Shown: one piece after another, positions 1,519 to 5,946 of the stretch
Layout of the letters: every line of letters starts with the position of its first letter
Position numbering within the stretch: position 1 is the first letter of the stretch
Virus record (IMG/VR): IMGVR_UViG_3300044701_000467
Span: 1-34,110 of that record
Strand: one strand, 5' to 3'
Source of the DNA: a virus
Length of the DNA: 34,110 bases
The notes under the pieces: model-generated
Seen by the model: only the letters and a program-made list of their open reading frames with translations
The model's database searches: none
What the model was told of the DNA's origin: nothing
Made by a program: the position numbers and the translations under genes

Positions 1519-1540
1519 ACAACAGGAGCAGACGACATGA
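1519..1540 (+). repeat. Duplicated leader/ribosome binding site, copy 1
   Basis: 22 bases including AGGAG, an 8-nt spacer, ATG and the next A. They are identical to 1795-1816. It gives the first rightward gene the same translation-initiation region as the gene behind the ribozyme. Confidence 0.9.
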
Positions 1541-1740
1541 GCAAGCAATATTCCTACGAACAGATCGCCAGCGACTATGCCCTCTGGGCACAGTTCGTTG
1601 ATTTCTACGGTGTAATGGGCGAGGGCGAATTCAACTGCCTGAGCGTATCGGAAAAAATCAAGATTCAGATTGACGCATTCGGGCCTGAAAACGATGACGA
1701 TTTTGCTGCCGAGGCTGCAGCCTGGGATGCGCGTTTCTAA
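1537..1740 (+). CDS. Small acidic early protein, unknown
   Basis: A 67-residue, strongly acidic protein and the first gene of the rightward unit. It has a good AGGAG ribosome binding site within a 22-nt leader that is repeated in front of the next gene. The N-terminus (YSYEQIASDYALWAQFVD) looks helical; the C-terminus ends in an Asp/Glu/Ala-rich stretch (ENDDDFAAEAAAW). Small acidic proteins made first after infection often inhibit host DNA-binding enzymes or act as DNA mimics, but nothing here proves that. Its stop codon (followed at once by a second TAA) ends 3 bp before a hammerhead ribozyme, so its mRNA probably ends or is processed there. Confidence 0.75.
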   Translation: MSKQYSYEQIASDYALWAQFVDFYGVMGEGEFNCLSVSEKIKIQIDAFGPENDDDFAAEAAAWDARF

Positions 1741-1743
1741 TAA

Positions 1744-1793
1744 GGACGAAACCCCGAAAGGGGTCCAGGCGTAACGCGCCTGCTGATGAGTCC
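1744..1793 (+). ncRNA. Type II hammerhead self-cleaving ribozyme
   Basis: All core elements are present in the circularly permuted type II order. Stem II 5' strand GGAC (1744-1747) is followed by core GAAA (1748-1751). Stem III is CCCC/GGGG (1752-1755/1760-1763), capped by a GAAA tetraloop. U1764-C1765 is the cleavage dinucleotide. Stem I is CAGGCG/CGCCTG (1766-1771/1777-1782) with loop TAACG. Core CTGATGA (1783-1789) precedes stem II 3' strand GTCC (1790-1793). A1751-U1764 closes the core beside stem III. Self-cleavage is expected between C1765 and C1766. It exactly fills the gap between a stop codon and the duplicated leader of the next gene, so it would separate the first cistron from downstream early mRNA and leave a 5'-hydroxyl hairpin ahead of the second. 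Confidence 0.93.
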
Positions 1794-3299: not shown

Positions 3300-3585
3300 A
3301 GCACAGGAGATCAAGGATCAGGCGCTTGACTCGCACGAAGAGCGGCACCGGGAATGGATACTGTCCGCCAGGCGACAGGCCATTGCAGTCGCCACCGACT
3401 TCGGCAGCGTCAGCATCAACGATGTGCGACCGCGCTGCCCGCTGCCCGATGGAGCGCACCCCTCGCTCTATGGCGCAGTTTTCAGGACTCCGGCGCTCCG
3501 TGCTGCCGGGTATGTCGTCGCGTTCCACCCCGAGTCACACGGTCGAGCCGTGCGTTCATACAAGCTCAACAACGAGGAGCATTGA
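3289..3585 (+). CDS. Unknown phage protein, possible DNA-binding accessory
   Basis: A 98-residue protein. ATG at 3289 follows a GAGGAGGATGAGG site and overlaps the upstream gene by 11 bp. The N-terminal half is a charged helix; the second half (VSINDVRPRCPLPDGAHPSLYGAVFR...GYV) resembles small phage proteins found beside recombination or replication genes that read as a winged-helix-like fold. That is from general familiarity, not a search. It is followed directly by the exonuclease gene. Confidence 0.65.
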   Translation: MTTEAQEIKDQALDSHEERHREWILSARRQAIAVATDFGSVSINDVRPRCPLPDGAHPSLYGAVFRTPALRAAGYVVAFHPESHGRAVRSYKLNNEEH

Positions 3586-3586
3586 C

Positions 3587-4540
3587 ATGGTAGGCAAGGT
3601 AACACCCAACACGATGATGAGCGCCAGCCGTATCCCGGCGCTGCTCGGCATGAGCAAGTACGCATCCCGCAACGATACCCTGCAGGCGGTAATTGCCGCC
3701 CACCAGGGCATCGAAGAACCCTGGAAAGGGTCAGAGGCTGCGGAATGGGGCAACGCGCTTGAGCCGACGATTCTGGCCGAGGCTGCCCGCCGCCTGCAGC
3801 TGCGTGATCTGCAGCTCGATCACCCCGAGGCACGGTTCCACCCGGATCTGCCGCTGGCCTGCAGCCTGGACGGGACCGCTGATGGTGGTGGACAGCGCCT
3901 GGTGTCTGACCCGGCGAGCGGCATCATCGTCGTCGGTCAGGACTCGATTGCGCTTGACGGCATCGGTGTCCTCGAAGCCAAGCTCACCAGCAGCTGGCCC
4001 GAGGATGTTCCTGCGCTCGACCGCGGCCCCCTCCAGCTGCAGGCGCAGATGGACATCATCGGCGCAAAGTGGGGAGCGGTGTGCGTGTTGTATCAGGGGA
4101 TCGAGTTGAGGGTTTTCTTGTTCGCCCCGCACCCCGAGTCGCTGGCTGCGATCAGCAATGCGGTGTTCGACTTCGACAGACGGGTGCAGTTCTGGCGGGA
4201 CACCGGAGCGATTGACTGGTACCCAGCTGACCAGGCTGGCGACACCGAGCGGATCTTCCCGGTCGCGGAAGACACGCAGATCGATCTACCTGCTCATGCC
4301 GCGATCCTGATCGACGACATGCAGAAAGCCGCTGCTGATATCGAGGATGCACAGGCTCGCAAGACCAAGGCAGAGACGGAACTCAAGCTGCTGCTTGGCA
4401 CGGCAACCGAAGGCAGGCTCGGATCGACTATCGTGCGCTGGCCGATGCGACACTACAAAGCCCAGCCCGAGAAGATCACCCCGGCTAAAGCCGCCTACAG
4501 CATCAGGCAGTCCACCCTCGCGCTGAAGGAAGCAAAATGA
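3587..4540 (+). CDS. YqaJ-like viral recombinase, 5'-3' exonuclease
   Basis: A 317-residue protein with a GAGGAG site 8 nt before the ATG. ASRIPALLGMSKYASRNDTL (about 13-32), WGNALEP (near 54-60), CSLDGTAD (near 96-103), VLEAKL (near 131-136) and LQLQAQMDI (near 153-161) follow the order of the YqaJ/lambda-exonuclease fold. Asp in SLDG and Glu/Lys in LEAKL form the metal-binding active site. Such enzymes degrade one strand of double-stranded DNA to expose single strands for a RecT-type annealase, and one is encoded downstream. The C-terminal 90 residues are helical. The stop overlaps the next ATG (ATGA). Confidence 0.9.
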   Translation: MVGKVTPNTMMSASRIPALLGMSKYASRNDTLQAVIAAHQGIEEPWKGSEAAEWGNALEPTILAEAARRLQLRDLQLDHPEARFHPDLPLACSLDGTADGGGQRLVSDPASGIIVVGQDSIALDGIGVLEAKLTSSWPEDVPALDRGPLQLQAQMDIIGAKWGAVCVLYQGIELRVFLFAPHPESLAAISNAVFDFDRRVQFWRDTGAIDWYPADQAGDTERIFPVAEDTQIDLPAHAAILIDDMQKAAADIEDAQARKTKAETELKLLLGTATEGRLGSTIVRWPMRHYKAQPEKITPAKAAYSIRQSTLALKEAK

Positions 4541-4707: not shown

Positions 4708-4855
4708 CCCGATCCTGTTTGCGTATGACCGAGCGGTGCTGGCCCTGCAGTCGGCCATCCCCGGCCTCGAGGAAGAGCGAGCGTATGAGGTGGTCACAGC
4801 GATTAGCCTGGCCATCATCGAGAACATCAAGGATCACTTCAAGGAAGAGCAATGA
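4697..4855 (+). CDS. Acidic microprotein upstream of recT
   Basis: A 52-residue protein with a strong AAGGAGG ribosome binding site. It overlaps the previous gene by 11 bp and the recT-like gene by four (ATGA). Acidic N-terminus (MEDDP) and helical remainder. Unknown function; the tight coupling on both sides argues that it is translated. Confidence 0.65.
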   Translation: MEDDPILFAYDRAVLALQSAIPGLEEERAYEVVTAISLAIIENIKDHFKEEQ

Positions 4856-5946
4856 CAGCATTGACGACACACCGCGGCTTCGCGCCCGCCACCATGAGCG
4901 AGGCCATCGAGTTCAGCCGTATGCTCGCCGAATCGAGCATGGTCCCGAAAGCCTATCAAGGCAAGCCGCAGGACATCATGGTCTGCGTTCAATGGGGATA
5001 TGAGATCGGCCTGGCCCCGATGCAGGCGCTCCAGAACATCGCGGTCATCAACGGCAAGCCGTCAGTCTACGGTGACGCGGCAATGGCGCTGGTGCAGGCC
5101 AGCCCCGTCTGCGAGGATGTGCAGGAATACTTCGAGGGTGAGGGTTCACCGAACCCGGTCGCCGTCTGTGTGGCCAAGCGCCGCGGTCGCAACCCGGTGA
5201 CCGCACGGTTCAGCGTCGAGGATGCCAAGCGAGCGGGACTCTGGGGCAAAGCAGGACCCTGGCAAGCGTACCCCAAGCGCATGATGCAGATGAGAGCGCG
5301 AGGCTTCGCGCTGCGCGATGCGTTCCCCGATGTCCTCAAAGGGTTGATCACCGCGGAGGAAGCGCAGGATTACCCGGCAGAAGCAGCGCCGCGGGAGCGT
5401 GACATCACCCCGCGCAACCCGCTGGATCGGATCGCCGCCCCGGTCGGTGTGCCGATCACCGCCCCGGCAGTCATCGAGCAGCAGCTGGCCGACACCATCG
5501 ATCCCGATGAGCAGGCGGCGGCATTCGAGCAGATCACCGCCGAGATTCAGGAGGCAGGGATTGAGGTGATCGAGATCCCCGAGGTAGTCGAGGCAATCGA
5601 GGAGCGAGCGGCAATCATCGAAGAGTCAGGTGTGCCGCCCGACCAGGCGCTGCAGAAGGCCGTCGAGCAGGAAGGATACCCGCTGCGAGTACCCGGAAAG
5701 ACCGAGCCGCACTCGATGCACATCAGCCTTGAGGATTGGCTGGTGGCCTACAACCAGCTGGCCGATAAGACCGCGACCGCTGGCCGAGCAGAGCCGCGTA
5801 CCCGCATGACCAAGCTGCGCGAACTGAAGGAGGCCAATGAGAAGGTCACCGACAGGCTGGCCCCGGTCCTGCAGTCGGTGCTGAATGCCGCTCACCAGCG
5901 CCGCCTGAAGATCCTCGGTGCAAGCCTGGACCCTAGCCAGAAGTAG
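4852..5946 (+). CDS. recT: RecT-family single-strand annealing protein
   Basis: A 364-residue protein. Residues about 10-185 carry the RecT-like pattern: PATMSEAIEFSRMLAESSMV, then KPQDIMVCVQWGYEIGLAPM, INGKPSVYGDAAMAL, and WGKAGPWQAYPKRMMQMRARGFALRDAFPD. Such proteins anneal complementary single strands made by the partner exonuclease encoded upstream. The C-terminal half (from about residue 190) is an extension rich in Ala, Glu and Ile that is not part of the annealing core, followed by a basic helical tail. It may bind SSB or other partners. It is the last rightward gene and its 3' end overlaps the endolysin gene tail to tail by 14 bp. Confidence 0.88.
   Translation: MTALTTHRGFAPATMSEAIEFSRMLAESSMVPKAYQGKPQDIMVCVQWGYEIGLAPMQALQNIAVINGKPSVYGDAAMALVQASPVCEDVQEYFEGEGSPNPVAVCVAKRRGRNPVTARFSVEDAKRAGLWGKAGPWQAYPKRMMQMRARGFALRDAFPDVLKGLITAEEAQDYPAEAAPRERDITPRNPLDRIAAPVGVPITAPAVIEQQLADTIDPDEQAAAFEQITAEIQEAGIEVIEIPEVVEAIEERAAIIEESGVPPDQALQKAVEQEGYPLRVPGKTEPHSMHISLEDWLVAYNQLADKTATAGRAEPRTRMTKLRELKEANEKVTDRLAPVLQSVLNAAHQRRLKILGASLDPSQK

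Follow-up and report, generated by a model that had tools for sequence, protein, structure and literature searches.

Type II hammerhead ribozymes located between phage genes were described in 2011, together with the proposal that they cut mRNA (Perreault et al. 2011, PMC3088659), and the ribozyme considered here therefore belongs to an already known kind. Tandem phage-type hammerheads cleaved in that study, in vitro as well as in E. coli, and cleavage in E. coli was also reported for a triple hammerhead arrangement that flanks ardA, an anti-restriction gene. About 40% of the hammerheads described there contain a pseudoknot between loop I and the tail, a feature that is not obligatory. Within the open-licence literature no later open-access paper that develops the mRNA-processing idea for phage hammerheads was found. 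Hammerheads also have an engineered use in the so-called RiboJ parts, which are used to normalise 5' UTRs (PMC7536230).

The DNA analysed here is the IMG/VR virus record IMGVR_UViG_3300044701_000467, from position 1 to 34,110, and this whole 34,110-nt stretch is referred to as the window. It has no DNA match among 50,697 phage records searched for close isolated phages. A type II hammerhead lies at 1744–1793 on the plus strand, and it shares its core and its stem II-open permutation with the type II hammerheads of bacteria and prophages (PMC3088659; Rfam RF02276), whilst intergenic arrays among phage genes and a proposed role in mRNA processing are further points in common with them. The window's ribozyme differs from these hammerheads in having a short 4-bp stem II and, in place of the pseudoknot between loop I and the tail, a compact 5-nt UNANG loop I and a conserved flanking A, in scoring under the Rfam cut-off and in sitting within a swappable first-gene cassette together with a homologue of the anti-CRISPR protein AcrIE4.

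Structure of the ribozyme

The first-pass annotation of this DNA had proposed a type II hammerhead with a full core, three perfectly paired stems in the type II arrangement and a GAAA tetraloop on stem III, and the sequence and the predicted fold bear out each of these features as well as the coordinates. The 5' half reads GGAC (1744–1747), GAAA (1748–1751), CCCC-GAAA-GGGG (1752–1763), U1764 and C1765, and the 3' half CAGGCG-UAACG-CGCCUG (1766–1782), CUGAUGA (1783–1789) and GUCC (1790–1793), all on the plus strand. Stem II, of 4 bp, pairs 1744–1747 with 1790–1793 and forms the open end of the molecule, whereas stems I and III are closed by loops, a layout seen both in the fold and in the pair counts. 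Stem III comprises 4 bp plus an A-U pair (1751–1755/1760–1764) and is capped by the GAAA tetraloop, and stem I comprises 6 bp (1766–1771/1777–1782) around the loop UAACG (1772–1776). The invariant core is complete, with CUGANGA at 1783–1789, GAAA at 1748–1751, the A15.1-U16.1 pair at 1751/1764 and H17 at C1765. Cleavage is predicted between C1765 and C1766, directly after core position 17 (a C that follows U16.1), which agrees with the 1765/1766 site put forward earlier.

The minimum free energy structure (-23.8 kcal/mol; z = -4.0 against shuffles) is exactly that of the hammerhead, although the pairing probability of stem II drops to 0.42–0.66 in some stretches of longer context. Inspection of the tail, AACAACAGGAG, revealed no complement to the loop UAACG with which a loop I–tail pseudoknot could form. 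Loop I matches a conserved UNANG consensus, which the search descriptor leaves unspecified. It is apparent among the 140 relatives whose stem-loop I is 17 nt long, where U1 is present in 138, A3 in 106 and G5 in 98. One sister phage (L227 / L153) has a 4-nt stem I loop, UAGA, rather than UNANG. Conserved bases also flank the ribozyme on either side, at A1743 and A1794. The base just 5' of stem II, which is A1743 in the window, is an A in 199 of 210 distinct relatives, a property that the search descriptor did not ask for, and in 122 of the 131 cases where no stop codon covers it. A1743 thus probably contacts loop I, and this tertiary contact between loop I and the stem II flank may stand in for the pseudoknot of PMC3088659.

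Detection and covariation

At its own threshold Rfam gave no match anywhere in the window. A permissive search with Hammerhead_II (RF02276) matches 1744–1801 at 18.8 bits, compared with a gathering cut-off of 37, which is a detection threshold and not a defining feature of hammerheads. A covariance model, R1, was built from 33 hammerheads of other, unrelated phages, with the phage group of the window excluded from training. It gives a single match in the window, at 1743–1794, with 63.9 bits and an E-value of 1.9e-15 that is approximate because the calibration was short. Within the same 19 loci 5 hammerheads pass the Rfam gathering threshold, whereas R1 finds 77 at E-values up to 0.01, which indicates that this threshold is too stringent for the compact sub-architecture; as the loci were fetched with the pattern of the sub-type, the ratio applies to that sub-type and does not extend to type II hammerheads as a whole. 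The first-pass annotation had suggested a covariance search and had taken a sub-threshold score, together with non-compensatory stem changes in homologous phages, as arguing against the ribozyme. The Rfam score does lie below its threshold, which misses most of the sub-type; R1 returned the strong match given above, and the stem changes in the homologous phages are compensatory, in the sister loci as in two alignments.

A pattern with 23 fixed bases that leaves the interiors of stems I and III free has at least 119 matches in viral contigs and 19 in bacterial and archaeal genomes. Both free stems are paired in 141 of 150 distinct sites, and several of the unpaired exceptions resemble chance matches in genome contigs. 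The full ribozyme descriptor has 244 matches in the fetched loci and none when those sequences are reversed, so that the hammerhead match is far beyond chance. Nine loci (L001, L003, L009, L018, L024, L048, L060, L062 and L086) each contain 4 to 10 intergenic type II hammerheads, of which the Rfam threshold reports almost none.

In an alignment of 20 relatives of the same length, 300 of 300 cells are paired with 64 double-sided changes, giving a covariation score of 0.616 versus 0.16 on shuffling. The alignment of 33 other hammerheads has 528 of 528 cells paired, 161 double-sided changes and a score of 0.835 versus 0.17, and none of 500 shuffles reaches the scores of the two alignments. The complete pairing in both is partly by construction, since the descriptor demands paired stems, and the less biased evidence comes from the free-stem matches and from the sister phages, which were chosen by their resolvase gene and leader DNA and hence provide a cleaner test. 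Among these sister loci the stem I sequence CAGGCG/CGCCTG is replaced by TACCGG/CCGGTA and by TGCCGG/CCGGTA, and TTCG or TCCG takes the place of GAAA as the loop of stem III, yet the stems still pair.

Position between genes

The ribozyme lies in a 72-nt gap that separates the stop codon of the preceding gene, whose last base is 1740, from the ATG at 1813. An exact 22-nt direct repeat, acting as a ribosome-binding leader, is found at 1519–1540 and again at 1795–1816, where the second copy is directly 3' of the ribozyme and supplies the next gene with its ribosome-binding site and ATG. The gap and the duplicated leaders are thus as first reported. No intrinsic terminator was found on the plus strand at the ribozyme site, and one weak terminator-like site on the minus strand is at chance level.

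The intergenic placement had also been called notable. The position itself is confirmed, but it is not exceptional, since 62% of 224 phage hammerheads, compared with 2% of controls, have an abutting same-strand stop codon together with a downstream start and ribosome-binding site. Across the 224 the preceding stop codon ends at a median of 1 nt 5' of the ribozyme, and it falls between -15 and +5 nt from it in 80%, versus 11% of control positions. These statistics indicate that the ribozyme, the window's included, is fitted between the stop codon and the ribosome-binding site. Multi-copy loci have up to 10 copies by the descriptor, spaced by a median of 577 nt, and both strands are used in one locus only. 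In a 7.5-kb contig piece (L080, 1650–7240) at least 12 hammerhead matches occur on one strand, nearly one per gene.

The neighbouring genes

The gene before the ribozyme (1537–1740, plus strand), the first of its operon, encodes a 67-residue protein whose acidic nature (pI 4.1) had been recognised previously and can now be refined. Its sequence identifies it as homologous to AcrIE4, an anti-CRISPR against type I-E systems, with matches to Pfam PF25703 (E 3.6e-16) and to AcrIE4-F7 (PDB 7vzm, E 6.1e-15) and with 51% identity over 51 residues to D3112 orf31, such that the whole AcrIE4 domain is aligned. The name of the Pfam family, AcrF31, probably derives from D3112 orf31. The 67-residue protein differs from AcrIE4 in having 15 extra C-terminal residues and in keeping only part of the surface that contacts Cas8e. 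In AcrIE4 the contact residues are E19, Y20, D22, D30 and E31, and the single changes E19K or D22K abolished binding (PMC8887544); the corresponding positions here are Q19, F20, D22, G30 and E31, so that D22 and E31 are kept and the activity or target of the protein may differ. No relatives of this protein were found in viral contigs, and no hammerhead was found near the AcrIE4 copy of D3112 and PA1/KOR. The present homologue lies outside the Pseudomonas D3112-like phages.

Downstream of the ribozyme, and also on the plus strand, is a gene for a 75-residue basic helical protein (1813–2040; phrog_16318, PHROG E 2e-5) that has 6 relatives in viral contigs and a low-confidence three-helix model; the low-confidence structure models of this and the 67-residue protein were left out of the conclusions. 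It is followed by genes for a serine recombinase of the resolvase/invertase family (2054–2704; Pfam Resolvase, E 1.1e-26), which is 93–98% identical across 10 sister loci, a RecE-like exonuclease (3326–4540; PHROG E 6.7e-29) and a RecT-like annealing protein (4852–5946; PHROG E 3e-50), all encoded on the same strand.

Amongst 280 hammerhead neighbours Pfam gives five counter-defence matches (the AcrIE4-like protein, ArdA, ArdC twice and an Acb2/Tad1 hairpin), and amongst 149 length-matched non-neighbours there are none within the best 25 of 35 families; this difference is not significant (p about 0.12). At one locus (L044, 1869–2771, minus strand) an ArdC-type anti-restriction gene begins directly 3' of a hammerhead, a situation comparable to the published ardA cases.

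A swappable first-gene cassette

The same promoter leader is found in 12 contigs, the window counted, which were picked by their leader DNA and not by the RNA. Some loci represent one contig fetched twice (for example L068/L147, L099/L145 and L091/L148), and distinct contigs were counted for the comparison. Nine of the 12 have a first gene with the ribozyme behind it and the other three have neither, which means that the ribozyme is present in 9 of 9 contigs with the first-gene cassette and absent from 3 of 3 without it. The first genes are of five types that show no mutual BLAST similarity, encoding the 67-residue AcrIE4-like protein or proteins of 50, 46, 88 and 66 residues; the 88-residue product carries a CxxCxGxG-like motif, and no informative family match was obtained for the first genes that sister phages carry in place of the AcrIE4-like one. 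As they share a slot with the AcrIE4 homologue, the first genes of L045, L099, L116 and L091 (50, 66, 46 and 88 residues, respectively) are counter-defence candidates.

The surrounding DNA is closely related in these phages, with upstream flanks 82–97% identical to the window and recombinase DNA 87–89% identical where measured. In the three cassette-free contigs the leader runs directly into the recombinase gene. These contigs share one leader-resolvase allele, and two of them are 99% identical over 5.7 kb in a gap-free comparison, hence the three are best counted as one empty allele, which may reflect a single event. The ribozyme thus keeps its place when a different gene precedes it, and contigs that lack the first gene lack the ribozyme as well. 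In more distant relatives of the recombinase the hammerhead was not found.

Proposed function and alternatives

Co-transcriptional cutting of the early mRNA, the role suggested by the first-pass annotation and proposed before for prophage hammerheads (PMC3088659), is supported by the present analysis as the best explanation. In our judgement the hammerhead probably does cut the early polycistronic message as it is made, yielding a separate message for the first gene and a standard, hairpin-capped 5' end downstream. The break would fall between C1765 and C1766 during synthesis. The upstream message, consisting of the leader and the AcrIE4-like gene, would finish with the hairpin of stem III, capped by GAAA, and would bear a 2',3'-cyclic phosphate at its 3' end. 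The downstream message would have a 5'-OH and open with the hairpin of stem I, shortly before a fresh ribosome-binding site. Hairpin-capped RNA ends that lack a 5' phosphate should resist degradation by RNase E and 3' exonucleases, and with both new ends capped in this manner the products would be shielded from 3' exonucleases and from the 5'-monophosphate-dependent action of RNase E. Since the first gene is a swappable cassette, the cut may double as an insulator that gives the following genes a constant 5' end. We infer cleavage in vivo, end protection and insulation from what was observed, namely the sequence and structure of the ribozyme, its covariation and position, and the fact that ribozyme and cassette occur together one to one.

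In this respect the site appears to resemble, in natural form, the synthetic insulator RiboJ (cited in PMC7536230), in which a hammerhead 5' of the ribosome-binding site likewise standardises the 5' end of the message that follows. RiboJ is an engineered hammerhead with an added 23-nt hairpin, whereas the putative insulator of the window is natural, of type II and placed between two genes.

The exact 22-nt repeats that flank the cassette, the presence of unrelated genes or none between conserved flanks in the sister phages and the RecE- and RecT-like genes downstream would also be expected if the ribozyme DNA chiefly marked the edge of a recombination cassette, with the leader repeats and the core serving as homology for RecE/RecT-aided exchange and RNA cutting being secondary. 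Such a role predicts that the letters of the DNA are conserved; stems I and III instead vary with compensation as pairing and core persist, and most hammerheads elsewhere occupy exact stop/ribosome-binding-site positions in many gene contexts, which makes this account unlikely. An active ribozyme could, alternatively, be a neutral or parasitic passenger that has no regulatory role and spreads because intergenic cutting is harmless. The diversity of gene contexts (191 and 195 neighbour clusters), the occurrence of about ten or more copies in some phages and the three sister contigs without the ribozyme are in keeping with this, but retention in all nine filled alleles, with stems changing by compensation, and the lack of anything to suggest a mobile unit larger than the cassette render it quite unlikely. 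It is highly improbable that the element is an inactive relic or a plain stabilising pair of hairpins, for although it scores under the Rfam threshold, has no pseudoknot and possesses a short stem II, its core is intact, every core base but N7 is invariant in 33 relatives from unrelated phages, and the positions of the tertiary contact are conserved.

Implications

As far as was found, the new elements are the compact UNANG sub-architecture, mostly under the Rfam threshold, the controlled demonstration that it fits exactly into the space from a stop codon to the following ribosome-binding site, the location of an AcrIE4 homologue immediately before the ribozyme and the gene-swap comparison. 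Because the Rfam gathering threshold passes over most of this sub-architecture, counts of phage ribozymes are probably too low. A broader and more doubtful idea is that phage hammerheads are natural insulators for plug-in first genes, often with counter-defence functions, in which case the large class below the Rfam threshold could flag unknown counter-defence genes; at this locus the ribozyme points to small uncharacterised genes that share a slot with the anti-CRISPR homologue. If cutting by the ribozyme does insulate the operon, genes of the anti-CRISPR type would be exchangeable without disturbing it, as the 5' end of the next gene would stay standard. Near-identical phages that carry one of five first genes with the ribozyme, or neither, constitute a natural experiment that makes the insulation idea testable and bears on the role of phage hammerheads, a question that has stood since 2011.
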